Below are positions 2,710-26,003 of a stretch of 26,003 bases of DNA, piece by piece. Origin of the DNA: a virus; the IMG/VR virus record IMGVR_UViG_3300034789_000257, positions 1-26,003 of that record; one strand, given 5' to 3'. How positions within the stretch are numbered: the stretch's first letter is position 1; every line of letters begins with the position of its first letter. The notes under the pieces are model-generated. The model ran no database searches and was not told the DNA's origin. It saw nothing but the letters and a program-made list of their open reading frames with translations. Made by a program: the position numbers and the translations under genes.

Positions 2710-2717
2710 TATTTATC
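2710..2717 (-). promoter_or_regulatory. T4-type late promoter motif (GATAAATA)
   Basis: GATAAATA matches the late -10 TATAAATA at seven of eight positions. It lies 21 nt upstream of the ATG at 2689 and contains the TAA stop codon (2713-2715) of paralogue B. Its spacing suits a promoter for paralogue A. Confidence 0.6.
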
Positions 2718-3522
2718 CGTAGTATTCCTTTACTACAACTACACCTTCTCGACCTCTAGCACCACGGTTTCCTTCCCTAGCACCATTTCCTCCAGCTCCC
2801 CATGCACAATGTGATTGGTGTCTGTGTGCATAGTTACGTTGGTTGTGTGATGAGGGTTGTGTGCCACCATAGTAACTACCCCCTGCAGTATGGTTTCCAT
2901 AGCACCAGTAACTACCATGTCCATTTCCTCCACCACCATATACGTTTAACGTTCCTCCAGACCCATTGCCTCCAATACCGCCTGCATGCTGTTGCCTACA
3001 GTTAGCACCATATCCGCCTGACGCACTACAGTAACCACCGAAGGAACTAGTGTTACCACCGCCACCGCAACCAGAATAATTTGAGCCACCACCTGGGTTA
3101 CCAACAGTAACACCGACACTGGAGACGTTTGTGACATCAACTGTTCTCTCTGCTGTACCGCCTGCTCCACCTGATTCTGCGAATCCACTACCACCACCTC
3201 CTGCTCCTGTTACAGTAACTAGAATTGTTTTGACTCCTGAGGGTCTTGACCATGTGCCATTAGATGTCCACACTTGCATTGAGCGAATACCTGTGGCAGT
3301 TGACACTTCTTTCCAAGATAATCCTGAGCCATCTGAGCTCAAGAATTTACCAGAGTTACCTGTCTGTGGTGGTATTACATAGTTAGACTGTCCTTGTATC
3401 TGTCCGTTGATATTAATGTTACCAACAGTCAATGTACCTACAGCAGATATACCTCCACCAGATAGTGAGAAACCTCTGGAATCTGTTAAATCTCTTATTG
3501 AAGCAACTTTGAGCTGTGACAT
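2713..3522 (-). CDS. Glycine-rich tail adhesin, paralogue B of three
   Basis: This 269-residue protein has the same architecture as paralogue A: an N-terminal fibre-like part (1-79), then a glycine-rich domain with GGGGSGF, YSGCGGGGN and YGGGGNGHG motifs, a variable window (about 205-240) and a conserved GREGVVVV end. In the variable window it carries WCYGNHTAGGSYYGG where A has HSYGNHSAGMSYMGG. The variation includes many synonymous changes, so it looks like ordinary divergence and selection. The ATG at 3522 is only 8 nt after the stop of paralogue C, with no recognisable Shine-Dalgarno sequence, so it may depend on translational coupling. Confidence 0.8.
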   Translation of the reverse strand: MSQLKVASIRDLTDSRGFSLSGGGISAVGTLTVGNININGQIQGQSNYVIPPQTGNSGKFLSSDGSGLSWKEVSTATGIRSMQVWTSNGTWSRPSGVKTILVTVTGAGGGGSGFAESGGAGGTAERTVDVTNVSSVGVTVGNPGGGSNYSGCGGGGNTSSFGGYCSASGGYGANCRQQHAGGIGGNGSGGTLNVYGGGGNGHGSYWCYGNHTAGGSYYGGTQPSSHNQRNYAHRHQSHCAWGAGGNGAREGNRGARGREGVVVVKEYYG

Positions 3523-3527
3523 ATCAG

Positions 3528-3535
3528 TATTTATC
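3528..3535 (-). promoter_or_regulatory. Late promoter-like motif (GATAAATA), position doubtful
   Basis: GATAAATA contains the TAA stop codon (3531-3533) of paralogue C, but ends only 5 nt before the ATG at 3522. Transcription from it would start at or near the start codon and give an almost leaderless mRNA. It may be a relic of duplication of the gene-end/promoter unit. Confidence 0.3.
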
Positions 3536-4340
3536 CGTAGAATTCATGTACAACAACGACGCCTTCACGTCCTCTAGCACCTCTATTTCCTTCTCTTGTG
3601 CCATTACCACCACTACCCCATGCAGCATGAGACTGATGATTGTGTCCGTAGTTTCTTTGTACGTGTGATGCTGCTTGTCCACCACCGTAGAAAGATTGTC
3701 CACAACTGTGGTTACCATACGAGTGATAGGAACCGTGTCCGTTACCTCCACCACCGTATATATTCAGCGACCCACCGCTACCATTACCACCGATACCTCC
3801 TGCGTGCTGTTGCCTACAGTTAGCACCATATCCACCTGATGCAGAGCAATAACCTCCGAATGATGATGTGTTTCCACCTCCACCGCAACCAGAGTAATTA
3901 GTACCTCCACCTGGATTTCCTACAGTAACAGATACTGAGGATACATTGGTAACATCTACCTGACGTTGGGAAGTACCTCCTGCACCTCCTGACTCACAGA
4001 ATCCACTACCACCACCGCCTGCACCTGTAACTCTAACCAAAATAGTTTTTACACCACTTGGTCTATTCCATGTGCCATTGGAAGTCCATACTTGCATTGA
4101 GCGAATGCCAGACTGCAAGTTAACAGCACCCCATGACATTGTTGAGCCGTTATTGGTAACAAAGTTATTATTCTGTCCAGATGGGTTAGGGAGAATATAA
4201 CTTGAAGACCCCGAGATGTTTCCATCAATAACAATGTCAGTAACAGTTAAAGTCCCGTTCGCAGTAATACCACTACTGGAAAAAGTGAATCCACCAATTC
4301 CTCCTAAGTCCTTTATAGCTCCCAGTTTTAACTGTGCCAT
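3531..4340 (-). CDS. Glycine-rich tail adhesin, paralogue C of three
   Basis: This 269-residue protein is the promoter-proximal copy. Its N-terminal 78 residues resemble A and B only loosely. The glycine-rich domain from RSMQVW onward is very similar, with the GGGGSGF, YSGCGGGGN and YGGGGNGHG blocks. The variable window reads HSYGNHSCGQSFYGG and later NYGHNHQSHAAWG, and is rich in His, which could reflect metal binding as in other phage fibre tips (speculative). A good ribosome site (AGGAG) and a CATAAATA late motif precede the ATG at 4340. The upstream XkdW-like gene ends 6 nt before it. Function is inferred as for paralogue A. Confidence 0.8.
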   Translation of the reverse strand: MAQLKLGAIKDLGGIGGFTFSSSGITANGTLTVTDIVIDGNISGSSSYILPNPSGQNNNFVTNNGSTMSWGAVNLQSGIRSMQVWTSNGTWNRPSGVKTILVRVTGAGGGGSGFCESGGAGGTSQRQVDVTNVSSVSVTVGNPGGGTNYSGCGGGGNTSSFGGYCSASGGYGANCRQQHAGGIGGNGSGGSLNIYGGGGNGHGSYHSYGNHSCGQSFYGGGQAASHVQRNYGHNHQSHAAWGSGGNGTREGNRGARGREGVVVVHEFYG

Positions 4341-5582: not shown

Positions 5583-8500
5583 TTAAATTACCAATTCACG
5601 AATTTGAATGTTGTCTCCTGTCTGAGGAGTTGTGCCGATAGAGAAATCTACAGAGTTAGCATTAACTGTGTAGTCAGTACCTGGTCTCTGACAAACACCA
5701 TTCAAGAATACCAATAACGAATATGCGGTATGCCCAGGTGATATTGCAAAGGATGTGGTTGACCCATTACCTGTATACATCACACCATTGTTACCACTGT
5801 TTACACCTGTTGCTAAACTATATTTATCTGCACAACCATATTTACCAGTCACATCAATGTCACCAGTGACAGCGACATTACCAGTAATTCTCATTCTATT
5901 GTTGGCGTCAGGTGCTTCTCCAATACCGTAGTGTGTAACTCCTGCGAATCTATTAGATGTAATAGGTGCAGTATCACTTAGACCAAACTTATACCATGTG
6001 CCACTATCATATATCCATCCTAAAAATGTGCCTGGTGTCCAGTCTATATTGTATGCTAAGTCTCCATCATTAAATGCTAGTGAAGTATCAACAGTAGGAT
6101 TACCACCACCATCATCTTCTGCTAAGAATGAATTTCTTAGCACTGTGCCATCGTCGTTGGAGTATGTTAGATTAAGTGTCTGGATTGTATCCTGTGATGT
6201 TACTTTCTTCTGGAAGGTAACAGGACCTGAGAATACAGACTCTAACTGGTTAGATGCACCACCAATTACGGTTAGTTTGTCAGTTAAGACCAACTCTGAG
6301 AATGTCTCAATAGTTGTGCCCTCTTCACCCAACACGTTAAGTTGTGCAATATCCTCGTTAGTAATCTGACCTGTAACTGGGTTAATAACTTGGTTACCAA
6401 CAAACAACTCACCATCACTGTTAACACCAGAGTAATATGCAACACCTGCTGCTTCTTTTAGTGACTGCGACAGTCTGACTTGGGCAGGAGTTAACACTTC
6501 TACCTGTGTAGATGGGAATGCAGTTGAATAGTTACCAGGACCGAAACCAAGATACTCAAACGTATGACCTGATGCTCTAAGAATTGAGTATCGTCTCAAC
6601 TCACAGAGTATCGGTTGGACTGAGTTATCTGCATTTAATTTAAGTGGTATCTTTCTCTCTTCTGCGTCTCCTAATCTAGCAGTAACACTAATACCATTCA
6701 ATACGTTAGATGTAGTGTTATATCCTAAGTTATTTTCTGACTCTAGTAAGAAGAATTGAGATGTCTCTTTTGTAATTGACCTCTGTGTATCTTCATTAGG
6801 TGTAGGTGATGCACCATCAGTTGTTGTCACCAATCCTAATGTTTCGTTATCTGCTATTGATACTGCTGCAGCAGGGTCGGCTACTGGGTTGTCTCTATCA
6901 AATGCAGGATATAAGTCTACAGTCTGCTGTGAGAAGAAGAAATCATTAAAGTTAGATGTTGAAGGTGATACACTAGCATTCAAGAATGTCAAATAATATA
7001 TTCCATCAGTCACACCTCTTTCAAACTCTTGATATGTTTCTACTGAATAGAGATAATATGTCTTAGAATATGCAGGAGAGTTAGTTTCACTACTTCTAGG
7101 TTGCACAACGAAACCAGTGATAGGTGGTCTAGGCACTGGGAAAGCATCCTTATCTAATACATAGCGATATCTATAAATTCTATCAACAAGGTTTCTTGCA
7201 TCAGGTACTCTTCGGATGAATGTAGTAGGTGTGAATCCTAAGTTTTGGTAGATACTGTTAGCAAGTAACGTAGTATAGATTGTATTTTGTGAGCCATCTA
7301 CCTGTATATACCATTGATTATTTGTGCTATCCCACTTGATAGGTGAATTATCATCACCCGCTCTTGTGCCTGTTACGTCAGGACCTGAAGGATTAATCTC
7401 TGCATAATGAGTTGTTGGCTCTTGTGCTCCAGATGCAATTAATAGCACATATACTCTGTCTGGTGTATTAACGTCATCACGTCTAGCACCTATAGTATAT
7501 CCCTGTACCTTACTTGGCGGTCTCGCAGTCTCAACTGTGTATCCATATAAGAATAGTTTAGTGGGGTCTGCAACGTTTCTCGTCTTGGTGATGTCAATAG
7601 TAACCCAGTTGATTGAAATTTCTTCAACATCTGACAACGACTTGGGAGGGATAACGTGAGTGATTTGCCCAGCTTTATCTTTTGTGAATGATGCAGCTTT
7701 GAATCCTTTGCTTCGCAGCGACGTATTTCCGAAGTTTGAGTTACTGTTAGTAATAGAGAGGTCGCCACCAGACTGAGAAAAGAAATGGTCACCAAATCCA
7801 ACAGCAAACACAGAAACAACCTGAATGAAAGCATCATTGGATGCTTTGATATGGCAATGACGCCACCCTTTACGATATTTGCAAAGACCGTTAATGTGTG
7901 CACCACTACCCGCAGCTTGTGCTTCATATGCTCCTGTTGATTGATTATACAATACAAATGCTCTGTCGTCTTTCTGTAGTGATATACCAGTAAACTGAGC
8001 AACAACCATAGATTTGAAACCAGTCGCTTCAGCTCCATCTGCGTGCATTCCTGCAACTCCCCACACACTTCTTAGTGAGCAGTTAAAGACATATGGTGAT
8101 GCTGAGTCAACAGTATCGATTTCAACTTTAACAAGTATATTACTACCTAACGCATTACCTGACGGCTCAGATGACATCTGATATGTAAACTGGTTACCTT
8201 GTGCAGAGGTTACCAAGAAACTACCATTATAGAGGAGAGCATCTTGGTCAGTAGGACCTGTTACACCTGATATATTAACAGCAACACCAACGGAGAAACC
8301 ATGGTTTTTGGGGTTACCCAATTCATCTACAGTAAATGCAGTTGCAGTCTGTCCGTTTCTAATAATCTGTGATACAGCAAATTCATCAGAAATAGGACCA
8401 ACGATTCTGTTTTCTTCAACTCTTGGTTGTAATTGGTCTTGTGCAATAATACCAGAGGTATCTGGGATAACAGCATAACCTTTTGAAATCTTCTGATAAT

Positions 8501-9182: not shown

Positions 9183-11438
9183 TTAGGGTGCTGCTCCACC
9201 AGCTCCACCATCACCAGTTGATGATACCTTAGTCATATTGACTACTGTGAAATCATCAGAAGGAGATTCAAACCCTGTAACCACATAACTTAAGTCGCCT
9301 GCTGAGGAGTAGACTGTCAAGTTTTGTCCAGGACCTACAATGATTGCACTATTTTTATCAGTTGTATTTGCTGCAACTGACTTATCATAGAATACATAAT
9401 CTTCCGCATTATAAATTGCTGCTTGGTCTGTATTGACACCTGTGCTAACTGTAGCGACATTAAATGTCAACGCTGCCCCGCCACCAGACCCAAGTAATGA
9501 GTCGTTAACTGTAATTGTATCTGCTGCTGCATGACCTTCACCACCATCAATAATAGTCACAGTCGCTGCACCACTACCATCCACAACTATAGAGTATGTG
9601 TCTCCTGTGCCACTACCTGTAGTGCCTGATGGAGCTGAGATAGTGTATGTGCCTGCTGCTCTACTTCCATCTGCTGCACCAATAGAGTTGACAGTAAGTA
9701 TCTTACCAGTTACAACCTTTGCCATTGTACGAGTACCATTGTTTAACGTTGGTGTATCGTAAAATTCTGTGCCTGCAGTAAATGGAGTTGACCCTTCACC
9801 TAACGTAACTTTCAGATGAGCATTAACTGGGTCATATGACTGCACATAACCAAATGGTCCTGGTGTTACAGCAGCATTACCACCAGCTAAACTGTCTGCT
9901 GTGATAGTATAGGTAACACTATTAACAGTGAATGTGTCGCCTGCTGCAAGAGGCTCACCCTTTACATCATAGATGTAAATCTCATTATATGCAGGGTTTT
10001 CATCAACTGCAAGTGAGAAACCAATACCAGTTGTGCTACCCGCAGGACTTCCATCTGCATATGCAAATAGGTTAATCTCAGTGGAGTCTGTTACTGCGAT
10101 TGAAGTATATGCTCCACCTGTGCCTGCAGTACCTACTTTACTGACCCCTGCAGTATATTCAGTACCTGGAGTTGGGTCTGCGTTTGTACCTTCAGCCTCA
10201 TCTGCAGAGAATTTAAGTGGATAGTTGTTGTTACTAGAGTCACTTAAATCAAACTTATATAATCTATCTTTTCTGATAAGTATAGACCCAAAAAGTATAT
10301 GTCCACTACCCTGTGTTTCAGAGAGAAGATACTTATTAGTGATAAGTGCGTCAGATGCAGTAGAGAATCCTAATGTTGCTGATGCGTTTGATGTGCCACC
10401 AGAAATACTTTCTGATTCAGTGAAATAATTGGCAAGATATACACCATTATCTGTTAACAGTGTAACTGTTGCACCATTGTTGTGGTCAACGTCTCCTGTG
10501 CCATACTGTGCTCTCTCAACAGTTATATCATTTCCTGCTACGTCTGTGATATTTAATATCTCATTATCAATTAACATCTTACCACCAGAAACAAATCCAG
10601 TAGAATCTGCAACTGTCAATGTTAGGTCACCTGATGCAAATGTCGCACCCTCATCAATAGTTGTAACTGTAGCAGATGCACTCCATGCATTACATGACCT
10701 TCCTGCAGGGATAACCCTAGGAGTTGTATTAAGAGCACCACGAGTAACAGTTAAAACATTTGTTGTTGTATTAATTCCACTAGCATCGATACTAACGATT
10801 TCCGTATCTGCAGGAGACCCATCTGTATTTTGGGCAATACCCAAGGTAAGATACATACCGTCAGCAAGACCAGTATTCCTAGAAATATTAAATGTGGTTG
10901 CTCCTGTAGTAACATCTGTAAATTGTAATGTTAATTCAGTATCTGCTCCTCCACGATAGACCGCAGTAAGACCTGATGTTGCTCCTGTAATTGTCTCACC
11001 ATTACTGAAAGTACCTGCTTGACTATTAGCTTCTAACTGAGTCTGTGAGACAGGTGCAACTATAGTGTAATATGTAACGTCTGATGTTGGTTTGAATACA
11101 TCAAGAATCGTTGCTATTGAATTATTTGTTGATGTAAAAGTTGTGCCTGGAATTGCGTTAGCATCTTGGAATCCTGGGTTTGTCTGGATTTTATATGCCG
11201 TAATTGGATTACCTTTATCTAACTTAAAAGGTGAGGCTGCTGCACCTGTGGATGACTGTGTGCCACTTAGATGTAACACTTGGTCATAATCTCTCAATGC
11301 TGTCCGATATGTCGCTGCACTTCCTGACTGATTACACACATTTAATACTGTGCTACCAGTTACTGTAGTAGGGCATCTATATACCGTTGTGTTTGTAGTC
11401 GCCCCTGGTTTAGCAGCGGCTAGTCTTCCTGCTGTCAT
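9183..11438 (-). CDS. Large tail/baseplate structural protein
   Basis: This 751-residue protein is almost all low-complexity beta-type sequence rich in Thr, Ser, Gly, Ala and Asp. It begins MTAGRLAAAKPGATTNTTVYRCP and ends with NLTVYSSAGDLSYVVTGFE followed by a Gly/Ala-rich tail, a combination I associate with a conserved virion protein of T4-like cyanophages. There is a mid-protein stretch GYVQSYDPVNAHLKVTLGEG and a SYSIVVDGSG-like beta hairpin region. No catalytic motif is visible. It starts 4 nt after the stop of the 448-residue fibre gene and precedes the 1190-residue gene, so all three are likely parts of one late transcript and one substructure (baseplate rim or fibre base). The exact T4 counterpart is uncertain. 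Confidence 0.7.
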   Translation of the reverse strand: MTAGRLAAAKPGATTNTTVYRCPTTVTGSTVLNVCNQSGSAATYRTALRDYDQVLHLSGTQSSTGAAASPFKLDKGNPITAYKIQTNPGFQDANAIPGTTFTSTNNSIATILDVFKPTSDVTYYTIVAPVSQTQLEANSQAGTFSNGETITGATSGLTAVYRGGADTELTLQFTDVTTGATTFNISRNTGLADGMYLTLGIAQNTDGSPADTEIVSIDASGINTTTNVLTVTRGALNTTPRVIPAGRSCNAWSASATVTTIDEGATFASGDLTLTVADSTGFVSGGKMLIDNEILNITDVAGNDITVERAQYGTGDVDHNNGATVTLLTDNGVYLANYFTESESISGGTSNASATLGFSTASDALITNKYLLSETQGSGHILFGSILIRKDRLYKFDLSDSSNNNYPLKFSADEAEGTNADPTPGTEYTAGVSKVGTAGTGGAYTSIAVTDSTEINLFAYADGSPAGSTTGIGFSLAVDENPAYNEIYIYDVKGEPLAAGDTFTVNSVTYTITADSLAGGNAAVTPGPFGYVQSYDPVNAHLKVTLGEGSTPFTAGTEFYDTPTLNNGTRTMAKVVTGKILTVNSIGAADGSRAAGTYTISAPSGTTGSGTGDTYSIVVDGSGAATVTIIDGGEGHAAADTITVNDSLLGSGGGAALTFNVATVSTGVNTDQAAIYNAEDYVFYDKSVAANTTDKNSAIIVGPGQNLTVYSSAGDLSYVVTGFESPSDDFTVVNMTKVSSTGDGGAGGAAP

Positions 11439-12832: not shown

Positions 12833-13291
12833 CTATTCCTTTGAGAAGGATAGACTACATCTAGGTCCTATAACCGATGGGTTATGATACACTCCTTTAG
12901 GAATATGTATGCCATCGCCAGGTCTTAAGATTATATCTGTGCCATCATCAAACCTATATTTCACCAATCCTAACACATTTACAATGAATACATCCATTGT
13001 ATCATTGTGTCTGCCAAGTGTTTTACCCTTAGCGAATGAAATATAGGTATGGACTCTATGATAATCAAAATTATCTGCAACTTTGTCTATGATAGGTTGT
13101 AGATTAGGTGCATTCCATTTACCTTCACATACAATAGTGGGTATGAATCCTTCTTGAGGGTCTTCACAATAACCCCACTCACCATTTAATACATCATAAT
13201 CAACCTTATCAATGACATCATTCCATGTCACACCCGAGAAAAAACACTCGTCAATCCAATTTTTAAAGTGTTTTACCGATTGTTGCTGCAT
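12833..13291 (-). CDS. JmjC/cupin-like Fe(II) oxygenase protein
   Basis: This protein has 152 residues counted from the ATG at 13291; a TTG at 13303 would add four. The core reads GRHNDTMDVFIVNVLGLVKYRF followed by LRPGDGIHIPKGVYHNP. This matches the double-stranded beta-helix of JmjC/Cupin_4 hydroxylases: HxD at H95/D97, distal H136, and R144 as a possible 2-oxoglutarate partner. By family knowledge, such proteins hydroxylate proteins or small molecules using Fe(II), O2 and 2-oxoglutarate. It is short for JmjC enzymes, so a bare cupin with no oxygenase activity is possible. It overlaps the end of talC by 29 nt and is the last gene of the accessory island. Its substrate is unknown. Confidence 0.7.
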   Translation of the reverse strand: MQQQSVKHFKNWIDECFFSGVTWNDVIDKVDYDVLNGEWGYCEDPQEGFIPTIVCEGKWNAPNLQPIIDKVADNFDYHRVHTYISFAKGKTLGRHNDTMDVFIVNVLGLVKYRFDDGTDIILRPGDGIHIPKGVYHNPSVIGPRCSLSFSKE

Positions 13292-13922
13292 AATCTGCGT
13301 CAAATAATGCTAAACCTTTCTCAGTCAATACATGATTATACATCTTGTCAAAGATTTTAGGTGGCATTGTAACAATGTCAGCACCGTATGTGAAACATTC
13401 AGCAACGCTATGCACATCACGAAGTGATGCTGCCAATACATGTGTTGTATCTACATCTTGTGTGCAGAATGTAGCAGTAATCTCTTTAATCAATTCCAAA
13501 CCATTGAATGAGTTATCATCAACTCTACCTACAAATGGACTAACATATGTCGCTCCCGACTTATGTGCCAGTATAGATTGTGCTAATGAGAATATAAGAG
13601 TGACGTTTACTCTTGCTCCTTCTTCTGATAATGCTCTGCATGCGGCTAGACCTTCTACTGTGCAGGGCACTTTAATTGTTGCTTGACGATTACCAAACTT
13701 TTTAATCAGTCTTCTACCCTCACCAATCATAGTATTTTCGTCACCTACGACTTCCATACTAATATCAGGTATACCCATATCGATTAACTCTTGGTATACA
13801 TCTTCTGGGTTTCTGCCTGATTTGTATATCAGAGTGGGATTAGTTGTGACTCCGTCAATCATACCAGTATTGTAATACTGTCTGATTTCATCTGTAATAG
13901 CGGAATCAAGAAATAATTTCAT
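13263..13922 (-). CDS. talC: Transaldolase (TalC / fructose-6-phosphate aldolase-like type)
   Basis: This 219-residue protein is a complete short-type transaldolase, a TIM-barrel enzyme that transfers a dihydroxyacetone unit between sugar phosphates in the pentose phosphate pathway. The Schiff-base lysine is in ATIKVPCT (K84), and the family residues D6 (LFLDSA) and N28 (GVTTNPT) are present, with SLRDVHSVAECFTYGADIVTMPP as the C-terminal phosphate-side region. TalC is one of the best known cyanophage auxiliary metabolic genes and is thought to support NADPH and nucleotide precursor production. Its ATG overlaps the TGA of the upstream oxygenase-like gene by 4 nt (ATGA), so it is translationally coupled. 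CP12 in the same window fits the same metabolic redirection. Confidence 0.96.
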   Translation of the reverse strand: MKLFLDSAITDEIRQYYNTGMIDGVTTNPTLIYKSGRNPEDVYQELIDMGIPDISMEVVGDENTMIGEGRRLIKKFGNRQATIKVPCTVEGLAACRALSEEGARVNVTLIFSLAQSILAHKSGATYVSPFVGRVDDNSFNGLELIKEITATFCTQDVDTTHVLAASLRDVHSVAECFTYGADIVTMPPKIFDKMYNHVLTEKGLALFDADYAATIGKTL

Positions 13923-14762: not shown

Positions 14763-15388
14763 CAACCTATGGTGATATTAGCTGTGAATGCAATTCTATC
14801 GTTACTGGGGTTTGAATCAAATCCATGTGTAACGTTTGAGGGGTAGATAATAATATCTCCTTCCTCCATATTGAAAGTTGCTTCTGTTAAATTAAAAGCA
14901 GTTGGATTTTCACTATCTATCTGCAATATGGGATAGTGATTAGATGCAACATTCTTTCTCCATTTAATATATGCGTGTTGCTCATGATTATAGTTAACAA
15001 GGTAAGTAAGTGAGTATACACAATTACTATGCTCATGAGGTGCGTAGATTGCACCTTCAGTTGCTAACTCTAGATAACTCTCAGAGACTTGTAAGTCTGA
15101 TTTATAGTTATAAGATGACTCATTATGCTTGGCAACAGCATCCATAATAGTCGTCCTAAACTCATAATAGTCATTAAAAAGTTTATTAGTCTCTCCTATT
15201 TGTGAGATGCCATGGCAAATTGACTCCCTTCCATGCTTAGGTAAAATATCTTCTTTACTAATCCACTCCATGATTCCTTTTTTAAGGTCTGCATGATTTG
15301 GTGCTTTGATTCTTGTAACAGGTGTAGGAAAGAATCCATAAGTTTCACTTTGGATTACATCTTCTAATTTATCACTAAGTTTGTCCAT
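14762..15388 (-). CDS. 2OG-Fe(II) oxygenase-like protein (first of two)
   Basis: This 208-residue protein resembles the putative 2OG-Fe(II) oxygenases of marine phages. It has YGFFPTPVTRIKAPNH at 17-32, the metal motif APHEHSNCVYSLTYL with H118 and H120, EEGDIIIYPSNVTHGF with H188, and R198 in NDRIAFTANI for 2-oxoglutarate. The order and spacing match the second oxygenase-like gene of this island, although sequence identity is low outside the motifs. The HxH rather than HxD first motif is usual in this phage subgroup. Substrate is unknown. The AAAGGA ribosome site and TAATG junction with the upstream Phd-like gene support the ATG at 15388. Confidence 0.8.
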   Translation of the reverse strand: MDKLSDKLEDVIQSETYGFFPTPVTRIKAPNHADLKKGIMEWISKEDILPKHGRESICHGISQIGETNKLFNDYYEFRTTIMDAVAKHNESSYNYKSDLQVSESYLELATEGAIYAPHEHSNCVYSLTYLVNYNHEQHAYIKWRKNVASNHYPILQIDSENPTAFNLTEATFNMEEGDIIIYPSNVTHGFDSNPSNDRIAFTANITIG

Positions 15389-15627
15389 TAAAAATCCTTT
15401 GTCATTTGTCCAAGAGATTCAGCAACGTATGCTTGTGTGCCTGCAGGGTCTGGCACAAACTCCTCTGGTTGCGGAATATTTATCTCTGGTGGAGCTTGTG
15501 CTACTGATGTAATTATAGCAACTTTGTCTCCTGTATTAATCTTTACTGTATGTCCTTTTGCTACAAGTGACATAATGAAGTCAAAGTTTGCTTTAAACTC
15601 TGCAACTTCTACGCTAATGATATTCAT
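15388..15627 (-). CDS. Phd/YefM-like antitoxin-family protein, no partner toxin seen
   Basis: This 79-residue protein has an N-terminal half MNIISVEVAEFKANFDFIM, then KGHTVKINTGDKVAIITSV, which follows the Phd/YefM pattern (I-x-x-x-E-x-x-x-N-x-x-x-x-x-x-x-x-x-G-x-x-V-x-I-x-x-x-x-K-x-A-x-I). That family binds operator DNA through its N-terminus and neutralises a toxin with its C-terminus. The C-terminal half here is Pro-rich (PEINIPQPEEFVPD) and unlike a typical toxin-binding tail. No toxin gene lies beside it. It could counter a host toxin, autoregulate the island, or have lost the antitoxin role. It overlaps the upstream gene by 4 nt and the downstream one by 1 nt. The family call is moderate. 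Confidence 0.55.
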   Translation of the reverse strand: MNIISVEVAEFKANFDFIMSLVAKGHTVKINTGDKVAIITSVAQAPPEINIPQPEEFVPDPAGTQAYVAESLGQMTKDF

Positions 15628-15855: not shown

Positions 15856-15884
15856 AGTATACCCTAGTTTAGGAGTAATGGCAA
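15856..15884 (-). promoter_or_regulatory. Sigma70-type promoter for the talC/oxygenase island
   Basis: On the minus strand, TTGCCA (15879-15884) and TATACT (15856-15861) are separated by exactly 17 bases, each matching the consensus at five of six positions. The boxes overlap the last codons and stop of the needle gene, and the predicted start near 15849 lies before the ATG at 15833. This would let host RNA polymerase transcribe the island early, independent of the late structural genes around it. Confidence 0.75.
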
Positions 15885-16874
15885 GCCATAGACCTGATGA
15901 GGTCCGAAACCGCAACCAGTCGCCATGTATCCTGCACCCACAGAGTAGGACGCCATGCCTGCCACCACTTGATTCATGATGTTTCCTGCGGTTACAAATT
16001 CAGTGATAACACCTGTAGGAGCAGCGATGAATGTGTTATGGACACCTGACACTGACCCTGCAATGATGTCATTCATAGAGCCTGGTATGGTAGATGACAC
16101 CGCAATACGTGTATGAGTCGGTGGTGAAACTGATGGGAATGGTAAGTCAGTTACAATATCAACGATTGACCCTTTGACTAGACTAAACTGTCCAGTCAAT
16201 GCAGCAAACGGATTGAATAGTGCAACGAATTCAAATCTTCCTGCATTTAAGAAGGATGTAATCCAGTTTGCTTCGTTAACTATCTCACCATCTGCAACGT
16301 TTTCAATAGTATTTGCTTCTGTCCTAACTGTCTGAGCATTCAAGTTAATACCTTCAACAGCAGTAATCTTAACTTTAGACCCCTGTATTGCCACCTCACC
16401 TGTGTATGCAATTTCATGGTCTCCTTCCTTACGCATTGCAGACTTTTGCTCGTTATCATCTTGCAACTCTGCCTTAAGTTGAGGACCGTATGGTGTCCTA
16501 CCCCACTCGTCAGCATCAGGATGATAAGGTATCTCATCTACTGGGTAGAATCCACCTAAATTATTCTTCTTTAATATTTGATATCTATCTCCTGCTTTCT
16601 TTTTAAACACCTTTGTATAGTTTAAGTAGTTTCCACCAGACCCTGTTGGCACATTAACACTACTACCACTACCACTATCATTATTACTTGAGTTTGCTGA
16701 TTTAAAGGTGCTACTGTTTGTATGATTTGATGTCACGTTAGTATCAACATCCTTCAGCATACTATCTAATTGGTCGTCACTAGGACTATCAGATGACCCA
16801 TCTGCCTCTGATTGAGGACCGTTAGATGAGTGCTCATTCTTTGCACCAGTAATTTCTTCATGATAATTACCCAT
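15864..16874 (-). CDS. Needle/C-terminal portion of gp5-like hub, after an in-frame amber codon
   Basis: This 336-residue ORF continues the gp5-like reading frame: its ATG at 16874 is in phase with the upstream ORF, four codons after the TAG at 16884-16886. It starts GNYHEEITG, which resumes the octad repeat of the gp5 C-terminal beta-helix. A Ser/Asn-rich linker (14-85) follows, then a folded part DRYQILKKNNLGGFYPVDEIP, an IAYTGEVAIQGSKVKITAV strand region and a hydrophobic, Gly-rich tip (about 215-336). By analogy with T4, it would form the membrane-puncturing spike. It could be made by readthrough of the TAG, by reinitiation at this ATG as a separate chain, or the TAG may be an error. See the finding on the amber split. 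Confidence 0.75.
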   Translation of the reverse strand: MGNYHEEITGAKNEHSSNGPQSEADGSSDSPSDDQLDSMLKDVDTNVTSNHTNSSTFKSANSSNNDSGSGSSVNVPTGSGGNYLNYTKVFKKKAGDRYQILKKNNLGGFYPVDEIPYHPDADEWGRTPYGPQLKAELQDDNEQKSAMRKEGDHEIAYTGEVAIQGSKVKITAVEGINLNAQTVRTEANTIENVADGEIVNEANWITSFLNAGRFEFVALFNPFAALTGQFSLVKGSIVDIVTDLPFPSVSPPTHTRIAVSSTIPGSMNDIIAGSVSGVHNTFIAAPTGVITEFVTAGNIMNQVVAGMASYSVGAGYMATGCGFGPHQVYGLPLLLN

Positions 16875-16883
16875 GACTTTGAG

Positions 16884-18599
16884 CTACATGTCTCCCTCAA
16901 CAGTCAATACATAATTACCTTTAATGGTTTGTGCTAAATCTTTACCAACAGTTTTTGTTTCATTATTAGGCACGTTGGTATGTTTGTTACCATACTCATC
17001 TTCAAACAGAGATACACCACCAGGTCCTGAGATAATAGATTTTACTTTACCTGGATTTGCATCATGAATAATCTTAGACCCATCGAGGAAGGTAGTTACC
17101 TCCATCAACTTTGTGTCTAAGTTTTGAAACATGTTATCAATATAACTCAAACCTGGAATAGTAATTCCTGGACTCTCACCCTTAGAAGTTAAGTCACCAC
17201 ATTTATATGGTGTGCCTTTTACTGCATCATCTATGTTTGTACATGATGTCGTACCTATCAGAGGATACCACCGATTTTGTTTAGGTCGTTTAATTTTCCT
17301 ACCACAATCTTTCTTAAAGAGTGTGCCAAGAAGCATTTTAATAATAGAAATCAAACTACCCCAATCTAACTTAGTGAAGTCAACTTCAAAGATTTTAGAA
17401 ACAGTAGACCCGATTGCTCTTGCCATACCAGCTATCGCTCTTGCTGTAGAGACTGCTGCAATAATATCACCCGCAACACCCTTGATTCTTTCCATTGCTG
17501 CAGTGATACCATTTAATATACGACATGTAACTGCCTTAACTGCATCAGCGATTGCTTTATTAACAGCATTAATCACCTTATTAATGGCAAGCGATGCCAT
17601 CTGGTTTGCGAAATTCGTGACGTCATTCAGTGCTGCCCTCACCAGTCCTAACCACATTGGTGTCTTAGCACAAAATATACTGAATATCTCTTCAACTAAA
17701 CTAAGAATAGCATTGATAACACCGAGAGGAATGAATTTAGATACAATCTTAACTAAAGCATTGATAACCTCTGCAATAATCTTTGCTAGTAATTCTTTTA
17801 ATGGTGCAAGGATTCCTGCAATACCTGAGGATAAGAAGTTAGTAATTCTTCCGAGATGCTCTCTGATTTTATCTCCTGCAATTTTATGACCTGTTGCAAG
17901 TGAAATCATACCATTCTTAGTCCATGCTGAAGCGGATGACATTTCACCCAACTCTTGCAACATACGTTTCAAGTCTATTTCAAATCCTGACCCACCAGGT
18001 CCGCCAACACCATCTGCAATAGAGTTTGCTTCTACAGAGGGTTTGATTGGATTAGTAATTACATTACCTGGCAGTGCTTCCTCTCCCTGAGATATAGCAC
18101 CACGTGATTCTTCTGTGCTACCACTATCATCTGAAGGTGTCTCTGATTGCACTTTAACGAAAGGATTACCTTCATTCCTTTCTGCACCAGTTAAATCTTT
18201 CTGTAAACTATTTGCCTTTACACCTTCTGTGCCATCAGCAATAGTCGTTTTCTTATCGCTTTCTTTCTGCTGAAATCCTCTGAATGCTCCTAATACACAA
18301 GGTAACTGTGCTTCATCTCCATCAAGGAAAAATCCTAATACCCATGCACCTGGCTGTAGTTGACAGGTTGTACCTGTATTTTTAGTCTGTGCATGGTCAG
18401 TTGGTAACAATACACTTGCCCAAGGTAACGATGCTGTTGGGACTTCTTTTGTATATGCTTCTTTATCGTAACTTCCTGTATACCAACCAAGAATACGCAC
18501 CTTGACACGACCAAGCTCCGAGGGGTCTTTATTAGACTCAACCTCGCCAACCCACCATGTGTATCCGTCTCTTCCTAGAAAGTCCGACCTTGTTTTCAT
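16884..18599 (-). CDS. gp5: Baseplate central hub subunit, gp5-like (ends at an in-frame TAG)
   Basis: This 571-residue product is the central hub/spike protein of the baseplate. Residues 10-110 are the OB-fold domain, with YTWWVGEVE, GRVKVRILGWY, LPWASVLLPTDHA and PGAWVLGFFLDGDEAQLPCVLGAFRG. Residues 110-210 are a polar linker. Residues 235-430 are a long amphipathic/hydrophobic helical region in the place where T4 gp5 has its lysozyme; no lysozyme catalytic motif was seen. Residues 500-571 begin the beta-helical needle, with residues V551, I559 and V567 spaced by eight. The TAG at 16884-16886 falls inside that repeat, and the frame continues into the next ORF. A perfect late promoter lies 18 nt upstream of the ATG at 18599, and there is no obvious Shine-Dalgarno sequence. 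Confidence 0.85.
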   Translation of the reverse strand: MKTRSDFLGRDGYTWWVGEVESNKDPSELGRVKVRILGWYTGSYDKEAYTKEVPTASLPWASVLLPTDHAQTKNTGTTCQLQPGAWVLGFFLDGDEAQLPCVLGAFRGFQQKESDKKTTIADGTEGVKANSLQKDLTGAERNEGNPFVKVQSETPSDDSGSTEESRGAISQGEEALPGNVITNPIKPSVEANSIADGVGGPGGSGFEIDLKRMLQELGEMSSASAWTKNGMISLATGHKIAGDKIREHLGRITNFLSSGIAGILAPLKELLAKIIAEVINALVKIVSKFIPLGVINAILSLVEEIFSIFCAKTPMWLGLVRAALNDVTNFANQMASLAINKVINAVNKAIADAVKAVTCRILNGITAAMERIKGVAGDIIAAVSTARAIAGMARAIGSTVSKIFEVDFTKLDWGSLISIIKMLLGTLFKKDCGRKIKRPKQNRWYPLIGTTSCTNIDDAVKGTPYKCGDLTSKGESPGITIPGLSYIDNMFQNLDTKLMEVTTFLDGSKIIHDANPGKVKSIISGPGGVSLFEDEYGNKHTNVPNNETKTVGKDLAQTIKGNYVLTVEGDM

Positions 18600-18611
18600 T
18601 TTATTAACGTT

Positions 18612-19082
18612 TTAGTTATTTATAGCAACAAATTGAAACTCACCTTCTTCTTTTGGCTTGCCCCATGCCTGCTCATTTGTCTCTAGATTATATCCAAAGT
18701 CCTGTGACCTATAGTCAAATCCATTGAATCTAACTGTGGATACCATCTTATGTCCTCTAACAATACAGTCATCTAACGTAGTGCCAGACCACCATCCAGT
18801 TTGTTTATCCCATTTCCAGTAGAAGGGGCATGAATCTGTATTGTGCATTAAATTGAAGATATCTGTTTTCACAAAATCCTCTGCCATACCAGTTACCCTA
18901 TAACGTAACCAGTTGTAAGGATTATCTTCTCCCTTATACTTATACCACGACTTTGACTCAAAGATGCCACTACCAGTCTTCCAAATCTTAATGTCAACCT
19001 GAGGCCACTTGGCAGGGTTAGACATTGCTTGACGTTGGTTTCGATAATGTCCTTGAATCAAATCTTCCCAGTTATTCATCAT
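18612..19082 (-). CDS. cpeT: CpeT-family phycobiliprotein lyase-like protein
   Basis: This 156-residue protein (from ATG 19082) matches the CpcT/CpeT family, beta-barrel chromophore lyases that attach or handle bilins on phycobiliproteins. Residues 11-35 (GHYRNQRQAMSNPAKWPQVDIKIW) match the family N-terminal N-x-x-Q-A-x-x-N-P pattern. LRYRVTG (59-65), WWSGTTLDDC (97-106) and the closing YNLETNEQAWG (131-141) match the R-x-x-x, F-x-G and D-P-E-T-x-E-Q-x-W-G landmarks. Cyanophages are known to carry a CpeT variant that has been studied as a bilin-binding protein with altered activity. It sits between two hub genes, starting inside the end of the upstream unknown gene (TAA overlaps the start region). 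TTG at 19088 is an alternative start. Confidence 0.88.
   Translation of the reverse strand: MMNNWEDLIQGHYRNQRQAMSNPAKWPQVDIKIWKTGSGIFESKSWYKYKGEDNPYNWLRYRVTGMAEDFVKTDIFNLMHNTDSCPFYWKWDKQTGWWSGTTLDDCIVRGHKMVSTVRFNGFDYRSQDFGYNLETNEQAWGKPKEEGEFQFVAINN
18617..18624 (-). promoter_or_regulatory. Perfect T4-type late promoter (TATAAATA) for gp5
   Basis: TATAAATA overlaps the last codons of cpeT and lies 18 nt before the gp5-like ATG at 18599. Transcription would start close to 18610. Confidence 0.8.
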
Positions 19083-19284
19083 AGTCAAATATACCGTAAG
19101 GTGTTAAGTCATACTTCACTTTTTCAATACCTTTTCCTTCCCTAGGTTTCGGGCGTCCTATTTTATCTAGGACGAGAACTGGTATCTTCTTCTTAGTTAT
19201 ATCATAAGGAATAGGTGCATTTGCTACACATACTCTTATGCATTCCAACTCTTCATCCGTGAAGGAGAAGTAGTTATTAGTCAT
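19072..19284 (-). CDS. Hypothetical protein, 70 residues
   Basis: I do not recognise this protein. It opens MTNNYFSFTDEELECIRVCVANAPIPYDIT, a short helical segment with two Cys (residues 15 and 19), then a Lys-rich central stretch (KKKIPVLVLDKIGRPKPREGKG) and an acidic Tyr-rich end (YGIFDYDE). It overlaps the cp12 end by 8 nt at its start and the cpeT start by about 11 nt at its end. It is therefore coupled with the two host-derived genes; a role with them is only contextual. Confidence 0.6.
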   Translation of the reverse strand: MTNNYFSFTDEELECIRVCVANAPIPYDITKKKIPVLVLDKIGRPKPREGKGIEKVKYDLTPYGIFDYDE

Positions 19285-20896: not shown

Positions 20897-23469
20897 TACA
20901 TTAACTCCGCTACATCGCCATTAAATTCAGATACCAAACCAAATCTGGTTATGAGATAAGGGTCGGCAGCACCAACAGAATCTATAGGGATTGGTATTTC
21001 ATACTGACCACCAGGCGTTGACATTTGCACTGGAGGAGCAGTTTGTGTTGGTGCTTCTATGACCTGATTCTTCTTACCTAATAACTCATTTTTCTTATCT
21101 ATAAGTGCTAACTTAGCTTGCTGAATTAAGTTACTAGCATCACTCTTTAAGTTTTTTGCACCTTCCAATATTGTCTGGTCACCACGACCATCAAAGTCGT
21201 ATTGGTTACCTGTGTATGCATCTGCTAATCCTAAGTAAATTCTCTTCCATCCTGTAGCTTCACCTTCTTCATTTCTTTCTGCTGTTATGAAGTTGGTAAA
21301 ATTCTTCTTCAACTTCTTAACTGTCTCTTGTCGTTGACGCATATGCGTCTCTTTTTGTGCATCACTGGTGCGTAAGATATTAATTAATCTATCTTGATTC
21401 ATCTGCACTTGACCCGCAATCACATCATCAATAGAAGTGCCCTCAGGTAATTGCTTTAATATTTGTTTTTGATGTCTTCTAAGACTCTCTATATCAATAG
21501 CATATCCTTGACCCATGATTTGATTCTCAATATTCACATTACCTATAATCTGCTCTACTTCACCACCCTCTGACTTCTGAGGTAATGCATATCCACCCTG
21601 CATTGCTTCACGAAATCTTCGTGATGTCAGTCCGCTATCTTTTTTAGTTGCAGGAGTATTGTATGGCACAACAAATGCACCACCACTCGCCATTTTAGAC
21701 CCAACCCACTCTAAACCATGACCAATAAACGCTGTGCTTCTACCACCGTCTAGTGATACAGGGTATCCAGACATAGGACCGTTTATCCATCCACCTTTTG
21801 CAAATTTGGGTGGAGCAACTTCACCACCCTCTGACTTCGGTGGAAACTTTTTGAGAGTGTCTTCTAAGATTTTAAGTTTCTTCTCAGCAAAAGCTAACTT
21901 ACTTCCTTTTTTATTATCAGGTATTTCACCTGATTTCAATTTTGCAATTTTATTCTGAGTTAATTCAATTTGTAATTTTATGTCTGGTTGTTTTTTCTTT
22001 TCCTCCACACCATCCGCAGTTGGTTGAGTCTCACCAGAACTTTGTGATGATGATGACAGTTTTTCACCAGTTTTTGAAGAAGATGTTTCTTCTTCATCTT
22101 CTTTATCTGCTTTAGGTGCAAAGAATTTCAATACTGCCGTTAATGCTTTTAACCCCATGAATAAGGGTCCAAACATTACATCAATACCTATTCCTAGAAT
22201 CTTCTCAATCAATGGCATATGTGGCTCAATGAAATCTAAGACTCCATTCATAACACCACCAAATGCTTCAAAGAATCCATTCAAACTATCTTTAATAGGC
22301 TCCATTATCTTATTAAATGTGTCACCTACCATTTTAAAGAATCTACCTAGTGGCTCCATTATAGGTTTCAACATCTTACCGATGCCTGCTCCTGCTTTTC
22401 CACCAAGTGCTCCTCCTGCTGCACCCAATATCATTCCCATGCCAGGAATACCAGTTGCCTCTCCCAACTTAGCACCTAACATACTACCGCCTGCAGCACC
22501 TATTCCACCACCAACAACCTCTTCTACATCCCCACCAGCTGCTTGGATTGAGAAAGCTGTGCCTAATCCCGCACCTACACCTAATCCAATTCTTGCAAAT
22601 TTATTACGTTGGAATGCACGCAAGGCTTTCATACCCTTGCCTGCCTTAAACATTCCTGCTATAGATTTACCTAATGTGCCGATTACCCATGAGAATGCAC
22701 GGACTGTGCCAATAGGATTTCTAAGGAATGCCATTGTCGCAAACAATGGTGCTGCAGCAATGACAAATTGAAGAGCACCAAACAATCCTTTAAGACTGAT
22801 AGGATTCTCTAAGAAACTTATAAGACCATTGAATGCATTTCCTGCTAAGAAAGACGATACACTCAATACAAACTTACCCACTGATGCTAAAGTTTTAGCA
22901 AGTCTTTGTATTGCTTCTGGATTCTTTGCTATCCAATTTAATGCAGCAAATCCCACTACTATCTTGAGGAAGTAAGTAGATAGTCTTACTAATCCAGAAA
23001 ATAATCCACCAAACGTTTTCTTAGACTGCTCTTTGAATGACTTACCTATTCTCTTGAATAGAGATGGTTTACCTACCTCTGAATCTTTTTCTGCTTCATC
23101 TCTCTGTTGTATCTTACGTCTTCTTGCTTCATCTTTTACTTTTATCTTTTCTCTTTCTCTATCTTCTTTTAATGCATCTTCTTGGACTTTCTCTATCTTA
23201 TTTGCCTGCTTAATCTGTTTAGCAACTGCTAACTTCATAGAAGAAGTCATGCTCTGCATACCTAGTGCAATACTATTAATAGATGCACCTAAAGAGTTTA
23301 TACCACCTATTACTGCTTGGAAACCTTTTCCCATATCACCCTGCATCTTACCCATCTCATCTGCAGATTGTAAGGGTGTATATTTCTTGCCACCAGTAGA
23401 CCCCTTATAAGATACCATCTTATAAAGAGCTGCCTTAGGGACTTTTATACTAGCGGGATTAGTTGCCAT
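20896..23469 (-). CDS. Large tape-measure/tail-hub-like protein
   Basis: This 857-residue protein probably lies inside the tail tube or hub. Residues 1-80 form a mobile N-terminal part, and about 80-150 a highly charged helical region (REREKIKVKDEARRRKIQQRDEAEKD), a likely coiled coil. A hydrophobic block (about 150-290) with NWIAKNPEAIQRLAKTL follows, then a Gly/Ala-rich zipper (about 290-370) and MEPLGRFFKMVGDTFNKIM. Later it has FAKGGWINGPMSGYPVSLDGG and TAFIGHGLEWVG, seen in phage tape-measure-like proteins, and ends LITRFGLVSEFNGDVAELM. Its first half is paralogous to the upstream gene. The hydrophobic and glycine-zipper segments suggest membrane insertion during DNA entry. It overlaps the upstream gene by 11 nt. 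Confidence 0.7.
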   Translation of the reverse strand: MATNPASIKVPKAALYKMVSYKGSTGGKKYTPLQSADEMGKMQGDMGKGFQAVIGGINSLGASINSIALGMQSMTSSMKLAVAKQIKQANKIEKVQEDALKEDREREKIKVKDEARRRKIQQRDEAEKDSEVGKPSLFKRIGKSFKEQSKKTFGGLFSGLVRLSTYFLKIVVGFAALNWIAKNPEAIQRLAKTLASVGKFVLSVSSFLAGNAFNGLISFLENPISLKGLFGALQFVIAAAPLFATMAFLRNPIGTVRAFSWVIGTLGKSIAGMFKAGKGMKALRAFQRNKFARIGLGVGAGLGTAFSIQAAGGDVEEVVGGGIGAAGGSMLGAKLGEATGIPGMGMILGAAGGALGGKAGAGIGKMLKPIMEPLGRFFKMVGDTFNKIMEPIKDSLNGFFEAFGGVMNGVLDFIEPHMPLIEKILGIGIDVMFGPLFMGLKALTAVLKFFAPKADKEDEEETSSSKTGEKLSSSSQSSGETQPTADGVEEKKKQPDIKLQIELTQNKIAKLKSGEIPDNKKGSKLAFAEKKLKILEDTLKKFPPKSEGGEVAPPKFAKGGWINGPMSGYPVSLDGGRSTAFIGHGLEWVGSKMASGGAFVVPYNTPATKKDSGLTSRRFREAMQGGYALPQKSEGGEVEQIIGNVNIENQIMGQGYAIDIESLRRHQKQILKQLPEGTSIDDVIAGQVQMNQDRLINILRTSDAQKETHMRQRQETVKKLKKNFTNFITAERNEEGEATGWKRIYLGLADAYTGNQYDFDGRGDQTILEGAKNLKSDASNLIQQAKLALIDKKNELLGKKNQVIEAPTQTAPPVQMSTPGGQYEIPIPIDSVGAADPYLITRFGLVSEFNGDVAELM

Positions 23470-26003
23470 TCGTTAGCATTCCGTTATTGTTAGAGACATA
23501 AGAAATTACAGGTTGGTCTCCTCCAACTGTATTTATTATGGGTTTCTCAATAGTTTGAGTTACGAAAACAACATTAGACTCTAATTCTTCATCAGCATCC
23601 CTCTGTGCTTTAGATAATAGAGCGTTATCGTTGAATGTAAATGTCTGTTGAGTATCATCTGAAGTGTTAATCATTTCTGACATCTTCTTCAAGTCACCCT
23701 CAAGACTGCCTAATAGTTTCTCTAGAGGAGTGCCTCCTTCCTTCTCATCGTCGTCTCCTGTTTTAGTTTTAACTGTTTTAATCTTCTTATCTTTACCAGT
23801 AAACACACCCAATGGGTCCCACCATGCTTTTTTCTTTGCCTCTTCCTTCTCTGCTTCTTCTGTCTTAGGTTTTGTAATCTCTTTTAGACCTCTAGGTGCT
23901 CTCCACATCCAAATATCATTCTCAGGTGACTGGTCTTGGAATATATCTCGCTTCATAAGATAAGACTTACCTACACCATCAGTCTTACTGTCTTGTGAGT
24001 TTTTCTTGAGCCAAGTGCCACCCATACCTAATTGACCAAAGGGGTCATGCACAATCCATCCTAACGGTGAATAACCTGTTAGCATAGCCCAGTGACCAGT
24101 GCCTGTATACTTCATCCCAAGAGGGACTGGGTATCCATCATCTATCTCTTTTCTTAAGTTATCATATCCCTGCACACCAGTCTCTAACTTACTATCAATG
24201 CCATAATCTTTCAATGCTTTCTGTTGTGCTGCAGCATCAGTTGACGTGCCATACTTATGTCTTGTCTTATTGTATTCTTTTGTAGTTACAGTATTACCTG
24301 TCAAATAACTCGTCCACATTGCCATGACAGTTGAATAGCATTGTGTATCTCCTTTACGACCTTCGGGGTCATCATCATTTGCTCTCTGATTATAGTAGGG
24401 CACAGTCAATACCTTACCACCCGACTCAAACTCTTGTAACCTCTGAGATGGATTATGTCCTGCAATCCTCATCAGTGTGTCGAAACAACTGACTAAACCA
24501 CCTTCTGCAAACTGTTGCTGTTTAAATGCTGTTGCTAACTCATCAAACTGAGCACCGACATGTCCACCCCATGCCTTGCTGTCGCCAGAAAACAATCCAG
24601 CTGGGTCCCACCATGCCTTATTTTTCTTATCTTTTTTTGCGTTGTCACCAGTAAAGACACCACCTACGTCCCACCATGCCTTATCACCTGATGCAGTCCT
24701 CTCTCCATCAAAGTCAAACAGGTTTAATGTCAATGCATCTGCAAACCCTGCTACCACACTTTTTGGATTCAACAATCGTTTAGCATTTCTGACAATAAAC
24801 CCTACCGTCTTACCTATTACTTTAAATCCTGTGGCAAAAACAAACCCATAGAAATCTCTTAATGGTTTTGTGTAGTCCCACAGCATCTTACCAAGAGTGC
24901 CTAAAACCTCAAATAAGTCACCAAGTAAAGGTCCTAGTTTGTCAGCGAAAGGTTTATATAATGCCTTTGCCAACTCCATATACATTTTAAATGCTCTACC
25001 TAGAGGCTCAAATATAGGTTGTGCCATCTTACCAAATGACTTTCCTACCCACTCTCCTAAGAAACCACCAATAGCACTACCAATCATAGGTGCGAAAGGT
25101 CCTAAGAATGGTGCAACTGCTGTTAATGCTGCTGCTCCTGCAATACCACCGACTGCTTGACCTACACCCGCACCGACTGCCTCACCCGCTTGCTCTCCTT
25201 GTGCTAGTCCTCCTGCAATACGTGTGACACCACCAATAATACTAAGACCGCCTGCTATCTTCCCTGCACCAACTTTCTTGGCAAACTTACCAAGACCTTT
25301 ACCCATCTTATTACGACCAATCCTACCTCTCTGCTGTAGTTTTGCTAAAGGACCCTTCTTCTTACCTTTAAACTGTGTTTGAAATCTATCCTTAAATTGT
25401 TTTGAATATAGGTCAGACTTCATTCCTCTGCCTGCTTTCGCAGCACGTTTGGAATCAGCTCTCTGAGCTGACTTTTGCATTGCCTGATATTCTTTCTCTG
25501 AGTATATGACTCCTGTTTTCTTATCTCTATACCCTTTTATTCTAGCTTTACTAGATGCTCTCAATTCTTCTGTGGTTTCTGCAGTCTTATCAAATATGCT
25601 ATTGATACCTTTGACATCCTGTATCAATTTCCATGGCATTATAAGATACTGAGCTGTCCTTAATGCTGCAATACCACCAATTATCTGGAATACTCCGACA
25701 AAACGACGCATTCCTCTTTCTACTATATTCTTATCACTAAGGTCTCCAAATGTATTACTGAGACCACCTAATACACCACCAACACCAAATGATGCTATTT
25801 TAAATGCGAATTTACCTAGAGTAAAGAAGAATTTAACTAATTTCGTTACTTGCTCTGGGTTTTTCTGTATAAAATCTAATGCACCATATATCACAAACCA
25901 TTTGACCATAGTGCCTAAAGTCTTACCGAGCATCCCGATAAAACTTTCTATAGGTTTACGAATTGTCTTAAACCTCTTATCTGCCTCCTTTGCTCCTGCC
26001 TTT
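23459..26003 (-). CDS. Tape-measure-like protein with C39-like peptidase domain; 5' end outside window
   Basis: The frame is open to base 26003; the first Met inside the window (25933) is preceded by in-frame codons (KRFKTIRKPIESFIG), so the start is missing. Numbering from that Met, it has a KWFVIYGALDFIQKNPEQVTKLVKF block like the next gene, a basic region (100-210), a Gly zipper (225-290) and QPIFEPLGRAFKMYMELAK. It then has a papain-like C39 domain with VPYYNQ, DTQCYSTVMAMW (C532), GHWAMLTGY (H614) and VHDPFG (D630), a plausible Cys-His-Asp triad. AWWDxxGxF(S/T)G motifs flank that domain. A role as tail protein with a peptidase that opens the host envelope is inferred. Confidence 0.75.
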   Translation of the reverse strand, partial: KAGAKEADKRFKTIRKPIESFIGMLGKTLGTMVKWFVIYGALDFIQKNPEQVTKLVKFFFTLGKFAFKIASFGVGGVLGGLSNTFGDLSDKNIVERGMRRFVGVFQIIGGIAALRTAQYLIMPWKLIQDVKGINSIFDKTAETTEELRASSKARIKGYRDKKTGVIYSEKEYQAMQKSAQRADSKRAAKAGRGMKSDLYSKQFKDRFQTQFKGKKKGPLAKLQQRGRIGRNKMGKGLGKFAKKVGAGKIAGGLSIIGGVTRIAGGLAQGEQAGEAVGAGVGQAVGGIAGAAALTAVAPFLGPFAPMIGSAIGGFLGEWVGKSFGKMAQPIFEPLGRAFKMYMELAKALYKPFADKLGPLLGDLFEVLGTLGKMLWDYTKPLRDFYGFVFATGFKVIGKTVGFIVRNAKRLLNPKSVVAGFADALTLNLFDFDGERTASGDKAWWDVGGVFTGDNAKKDKKNKAWWDPAGLFSGDSKAWGGHVGAQFDELATAFKQQQFAEGGLVSCFDTLMRIAGHNPSQRLQEFESGGKVLTVPYYNQRANDDDPEGRKGDTQCYSTVMAMWTSYLTGNTVTTKEYNKTRHKYGTSTDAAAQQKALKDYGIDSKLETGVQGYDNLRKEIDDGYPVPLGMKYTGTGHWAMLTGYSPLGWIVHDPFGQLGMGGTWLKKNSQDSKTDGVGKSYLMKRDIFQDQSPENDIWMWRAPRGLKEITKPKTEEAEKEEAKKKAWWDPLGVFTGKDKKIKTVKTKTGDDDEKEGGTPLEKLLGSLEGDLKKMSEMINTSDDTQQTFTFNDNALLSKAQRDADEELESNVVFVTQTIEKPIINTVGGDQPVISYVSNNNGMLTNGN
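23812..24683 (-). repeat. Three AWWD-x-x-G-x-F-(S/T)-G motifs in one protein
   Basis: The protein segments KAWWDVGGVFTGD (about 24683), KAWWDPAGLFSGD (about 24620) and KAWWDPLGVFTGK (about 23830) are near-identical. The underlying DNA is also close (CCCACCATGCC on the plus strand in all three). Two lie before and one after the C39-like domain, each followed by a Lys-rich stretch, so they look like docking or linker units. Confidence 0.75.

Follow-up and report, generated by a model that had tools for sequence, protein, structure and literature searches.

A single in-frame TAG in the gp5 gene of a cyanophage contig is probably a sequence error or a private mutation

Results and Discussion

The gp5 gene in the window (the whole stretch of DNA analysed, a 26,003-base record) is interrupted by one in-frame TAG, and among the contigs examined the TAG is present in this one only; the two parts belong to one ancestral gene, the relatives carry sense codons at the site, and TAG is a usual terminator of the gene. 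Because the TAG is absent from the relatives examined, including two that are nearly identical to the window, the most likely reading is an error in the sequence or else a rare mutation private to this contig. We are confident that it is a substitution confined to one contig (an error in base calling or consensus building, or a nonsense allele private to the contig) in an ordinary single-gene gp5, and that no programmed device for making two products is involved. A single substitution would have converted codon 572, which specifies Tyr in close relatives, to TAG, and the virus population would translate gp5 without interruption, into a single chain of about 900 residues. The translational novelty suggested in a first-pass annotation is thus not supported, the TAG being a substitution in one contig, and as it stands the finding leaves existing knowledge unchanged. 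Were the amber allele real and functional, a two-chain spike, in T4 the product of proteolysis, would be reached through translation instead. The practical lesson is that, when a structural gene is interrupted in one contig of an uncultured virus, a translational mechanism should be put forward only after near-identical contigs have been compared.

The interrupted frame and its octad repeat

The frame at 18599-15864 (minus strand) has a single interruption, the TAG at 16886-16884, and reads on the minus strand ...GTTGAGGGAGACATG TAG CTCAAAGTCATGGGTAATTATCATGAAGAA; if the TAG is counted as a residue, the frame comprises 911 residues. The first-pass annotation had described an octad-bearing gp5 frame split by an in-frame TAG, and this was confirmed at the same codon. 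The 5' part (baseplate hub/spike; 16884-18599, minus strand) contains 571 codons, ends with VEGDM and is followed by the TAG as residue 572 (16884-16886, minus strand), which is TAT in the two near-identical contigs. The 3' part (15864-16883, minus strand) continues in the same frame for 339 codons up to a normal terminator, TAG at 15866-15864.

The TAG lies in an octad repeat that resembles the C-terminal trimerisation stretch of gp5 (residues ~538-591; 16827-16988, minus strand), as judged from the octad positions and from a Pfam match on an intact relative, L002. With the TAG taken as one residue, the register comprises V551, I559, V567, V575 and I583 together with G561, G569, G577 and G585, so that every position named in the first-pass annotation was correct and the phase is kept across the stop. 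Four isolate cyanophage proteins and four intact IMG/VR relatives align without gaps through the TAG position, which argues that the register is not due to chance. The TAG is located about two octads short of the end of the octad stretch; its placement inside the repeat is therefore upheld, but its placement at the boundary between hub and needle is not, since about two octads remain after it. By eye, the 339 residues 3' of the TAG consist mostly of a Ser/Asn/Gly-rich linker and an octad-free C-terminal region. The downstream ORF that begins at ATG 16874 takes as its start M576, a Met within the repeat that is nearly invariant in 29 relatives; this ATG is an internal Met of the repeat rather than the start of a separate gene.

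An ordinary gp5 of T4-like cyanophages

The interrupted gene is an ordinary single-gene gp5 (baseplate hub plus spike) of a T4-like cyanophage. Both parts match one profile, phrog_694 (baseplate hub and tail lysozyme; 851 positions), the part before the TAG at 12-543 (E 2.4e-126) and the part after it at 634-851 (E 2.7e-29), i.e., over most of the profile length and with the N- and C-terminal parts in order. The single uninterrupted reading frame that a PHROG 694 gene should have is broken in the window by the TAG at 16886-16884, and since the interruption is one codon in this contig alone, we filed the gene as a broken copy of PHROG 694. The rest of the window also has the marks of a cyanophage, with a CpeT gene (18612-19088), a transaldolase gene (13263-13922) and other tail genes beside the gp5-like one. 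A tryptophan-halogenase-like gene on this cyanophage contig (1-1368, minus strand; PF04820, E 7e-102) runs off the window end, and a small gene at 15388-15627 (minus strand) is weakly Phd-antitoxin-like (phrog_375, E 3.3e-7; below the cut-off in Pfam).

When phage records were searched by tblastn with the hub ORF, 673 of them matched, and four Kyanoviridae isolates among the matches listed were examined. Their gp5 is one uninterrupted CDS (P-TIM40, 865 aa; S-WAM1, 859 aa; S-SZBM1, 851 aa; P-RSM6, 910 aa), resembling the window in that both ORFs belong to the same family, the length is similar and the same repeat motif occurs at the site; in three of the four, as in the window, a CpeT-like gene lies directly upstream of gp5. 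They differ from the window in the intact CDS and in the residue at the site, which is His in P-TIM40 and Tyr in S-WAM1, S-SZBM1 and P-RSM6, where the window has TAG.

The similarity to T4 gp5 is partial. A profile of 29 relatives matched T4 gp5-type chains in the PDB (five distinct sequences) at query positions 11-125 only, corresponding to the N-terminal OB region, and Gp5_OB of Pfam scored 23.8 bits on the window ORF, just under its cut-off of 25 (Gp5_OB was not listed for L002). The C-terminal octad repeat is also shared with T4, Gly and Val being in register (T4 repeat: PMC3004832); PF22178 (Gp5_trimer_C) matched residues 538-589 of L002 with E 3.4e-5 and 24.4 bits, below the curated cut-off of 30.9, and the TAG falls within the corresponding stretch of the window protein. 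In contrast, T4 gp5 carries a lysozyme domain that lies between its OB region and beta-helix, for which no Pfam match was found in the window hub ORF nor, at E up to 1, in L002, and the PDB profile match of the relatives was confined to positions 11-125. The name "tail lysozyme" seems to be inherited from T4 and is unsupported here, because no lysozyme domain was found. Elsewhere in the window, a large tail gene (23459-26003, minus strand) contains a domain resembling C39 cysteine peptidases (PF13529, E 2.7e-9; residues 532-654 of the translated part), which, given that no lysozyme domain was found in gp5, may be a cell-wall or processing enzyme. An AlphaFold model built from L002 and 28 other relatives did not reach a usable quality (mean pLDDT 40.6, pTM 0.21); single-chain folding is not to be expected of a triple-stranded helix.

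The first-pass annotation had also drawn a parallel with T4, in which gp5 is cut into gp5* and gp5C. This parallel is weak. The cyanophage protein has the octad/trimerisation domain (recognised by PF22178 below its cut-off) but no match to the lysozyme domain that characterises T4 gp5 in the strict sense, so that no such domain was found for a cut to release. Moreover, T4 obtains two chains by a cut between Ser351 and Ala352, before the beta-helix, whereas in the window the stop falls among the octads and is not shared by relatives. Termination after residue 571 would give a spike cut short rather than the counterpart of gp5*.

The codon at the site among relatives

Two contigs are nearly identical to the window and carry two different metagenome numbers: 3300020403_000054 (99.56% identity over 17,204 columns) and 3300020470_000104 (99.72% over 17,397 columns). 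Both have TAT at the site, and among the differences listed in either comparison TAG/TAT is the sole one by which a stop is gained or lost. Apart from it, gp5 differs from that of 3300020403_000054 in one amino acid, S161N; 3300020470_000104 spans gp5 from about residue 402 on and shows no other amino-acid difference there. Between 16120 and 17390 the window equals both twins except at the TAG base, and thus no other change accompanies the TAG. Four further relatives with 82-86% protein identity (L003, L004, L005 and L047; the proteins of L003 and L004 are identical) agree with the twins on TAT, which indicates that the base of the window is the derived one.

For a wider comparison, IMG/VR was searched with six hub-ORF peptides, none of which lies at the site, yielding 56 loci, of which 51 cover the site (L006, L051, L055, L056 and L057 gave no alignment over it). 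The codon there is TAT in 38, TAC in 2, AAC in 6, ACT in 4 and ACG in 1 of the 51 contigs, encoding Tyr, Asn or Thr, and a stop in none (0/51); note that the 51 do not amount to as many independent lineages, because some are almost duplicates of others. With TAG at the site, a degenerate pattern had no match in IMG/VR, the same pattern with TAY matched 64 stretches, and neither a looser TAG pattern nor a TAA/TGA pattern had any match (the scans may omit records very near the window, so that a second TAG-bearing copy could be hidden). Pooling the peptide search and the TAY scan gave 76 distinct contigs with the site and a stop in none (0/76), 25 of them coming from the TAY scan only and hence selected for TAY. 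Both ends of the frame are present in 63 of the 76, and all 63 are open across 884-942 codons from stop to stop. The comparison of this codon in close relatives, which the first-pass annotation had called for, therefore returned a sense codon throughout, and the TAG is specific to this contig among those examined.

Sequence error or private mutation

Among the explanations that had been offered for the TAG, a nonsense mutation or a sequencing error is favoured by the 0/51 stops and by TAT in the near twins. A random single-base change in gp5 leads to a stop in 4.3% of cases (354/8199), and one such change suffices. A wrong consensus or base call in the metagenome assembly is, in our judgement and not by measured odds, slightly the more likely of the two; a private and probably defective nonsense allele is quite possible, and we hold that option more tentatively. 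As a control for the rate of such stops, 14 genes (gp5 included) were compared across 56 related loci, about 146,000 aligned residues in a first count. Three stops were flagged, all near alignment ends, and a recount that also covered the intervals between same-frame pieces gave 498 gene copies and 151,641 covered residues with no internal in-frame stop and three at the ends (the window genes 9183-11438 and 23459-26003 gave no alignment past the cut). Errors of this kind are thus uncommon, which leaves room for a real allele. Taken together, we infer that the TAG is an error or a deleterious mutation.

Alternative explanations

The TAG might be a genuine nonsense allele that the virus tolerates, with some gp5, full-length or in two chains, being made by weak TAG readthrough or by re-initiation at AUG 16874. 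In accordance with this, the downstream frame is intact, an in-frame ATG follows 12 bases past the T of the TAG, and the cleaved pieces of T4 gp5 stay in one complex, (gp27-gp5*-gp5C)3 (PMC3004832). However, M576 is a nearly invariant repeat residue in the relatives and so has not arisen as a start, the stretch 16120-17390 is otherwise identical to that of the TAT-bearing twins with no companion change, the RNA that follows the TAG shows no notable structure (fold of the next 100 bases: z -1.5, 16 of 200 shuffles being at least as stable), and in T4 it is the C-terminal part that is responsible for trimerisation of the whole protein (PMC3004832). We regard such an allele as unlikely, and its stronger form, an amber gp5 allele that circulates and stays infectious through limited readthrough or restart at the downstream Met, so that its two-chain spike would replace what T4 achieves by proteolytic cutting, as very unlikely. 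Programmed readthrough or an amber suppressor of the phage, by which a short hub and a long hub-plus-needle chain would be produced on purpose, would fit a lone in-frame TAG beyond which both the protein family and the octad register continue, but we consider it highly improbable. A programmed stop should be conserved with the downstream frame in relatives, yet the site has a stop in none of the 51 contigs from the blind search, in neither near twin and in no match of the pattern scans. Furthermore, gp5 itself has TAG as its terminator in the window and 33 of the 63 full-length relatives (TGA in the other 30), so suppressing or reassigning TAG in general would disrupt the proper end of gp5, prolonging it in the window by 79 more open codons. 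Neither the window nor the five related records scanned yielded a tRNA with a CTA anticodon, although the genome is probably larger than the window and a suppressor could sit elsewhere in it. The scan found no tRNA gene in the window, in either twin record or in G003, and none at the joins of fetched pieces in G001-G003 or in a 58-base gap of G004; of two long relatives (G004 and G005) one has no tRNA and the other has Arg-TCT and Thr-TGT, and both speak weakly for this virus because the identity of the hub ORF is only 63% and 56% (L007 and L039). Neither suppression by a host or phage tRNA nor a deliberate pair of short and long chains, both raised in the first-pass annotation, is borne out, in view of the sense codons in the blind-search contigs and the twins, of TAG as the ordinary terminator of gp5, and of the lack of a CTA tRNA in the records scanned. 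Our literature search found no paper uniting cyanophage, amber and stop-codon readthrough ("readthrough" in the relevant part of PMC3091744 denotes a -1 frameshift, and the relevant passages of PMC5009743 contain no case in a phage tail gene).

A changed genetic code with TAG as a sense codon, as in some gut phages, is extremely improbable. Reassignment of TAG to Gln does exist in phages (PMC11210395), and phages using table 15, e.g., Crassvirales, resemble the window in having an in-frame TAG in a structural gene. Unlike in these, the TAG of the window is single, TAG also serves as a terminator, no suppressor tRNA was found in the records scanned (in the relevant part of PMC11210395, 375 of 715 predicted TAG-reassigned cases, 52.4%, had a suppressor tRNA with a CTA anticodon) and the site has Gln in none of the relatives examined: codon 572 specifies Tyr, Asn or Thr in the IMG/VR relatives and His or Tyr in the four isolates. 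A genome under table 15 should have many TAG-interrupted genes and no TAG terminators, whereas here one gene is interrupted and gp5 ends in TAG. Among the 24 ORFs taken as genes, only gp5 continues as the same protein past its stop (the frame 18612-19088 is likewise open past its stop, but there the stop is TAA and the continuation is gp5 itself), and their stops comprise 17 TAA, 4 TAG and 3 TGA, two of the four TAG being the interrupting codon and the normal end of gp5. We rejected a changed code on the stop usage of the window and its relatives. That hub and needle are two ancestral genes which share a frame by chance is suggested by the two separate ORFs of the mechanical listing, but the probability is vanishingly small: the frame is single and uninterrupted in 63 of 63 full-length relatives and in the four isolates (851-910 aa), and both ORFs match consecutive parts of one profile. 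Two separate genes are therefore ruled out by the single frames of the relatives; none of these relatives had two genes, and in the eight proteins aligned through the site no gap breaks the octad. The first-pass reading of the two ORFs as one ancestral protein of about 911 residues agrees with these data.

Other features noted in the window

The comparisons with near-identical contigs also drew attention to features outside gp5. A short stretch (21816-21998, minus strand) of an 857-aa tail gene is hypervariable relative to the 99.6% identical contig, with amino-acid changes and in-frame gaps totalling 21 bases. Three tandem genes (1877-2689, 2713-3522 and 3531-4340, minus strand) encode similar Gly-rich proteins of about 270 aa and give cross-matches to a near twin at about 71% DNA identity. 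Finally, dense clusters of synonymous differences from the 99.7% identical contig, of the kind that local recombination leaves, occur at 5679-5763 and 6267-6297 (minus strand).
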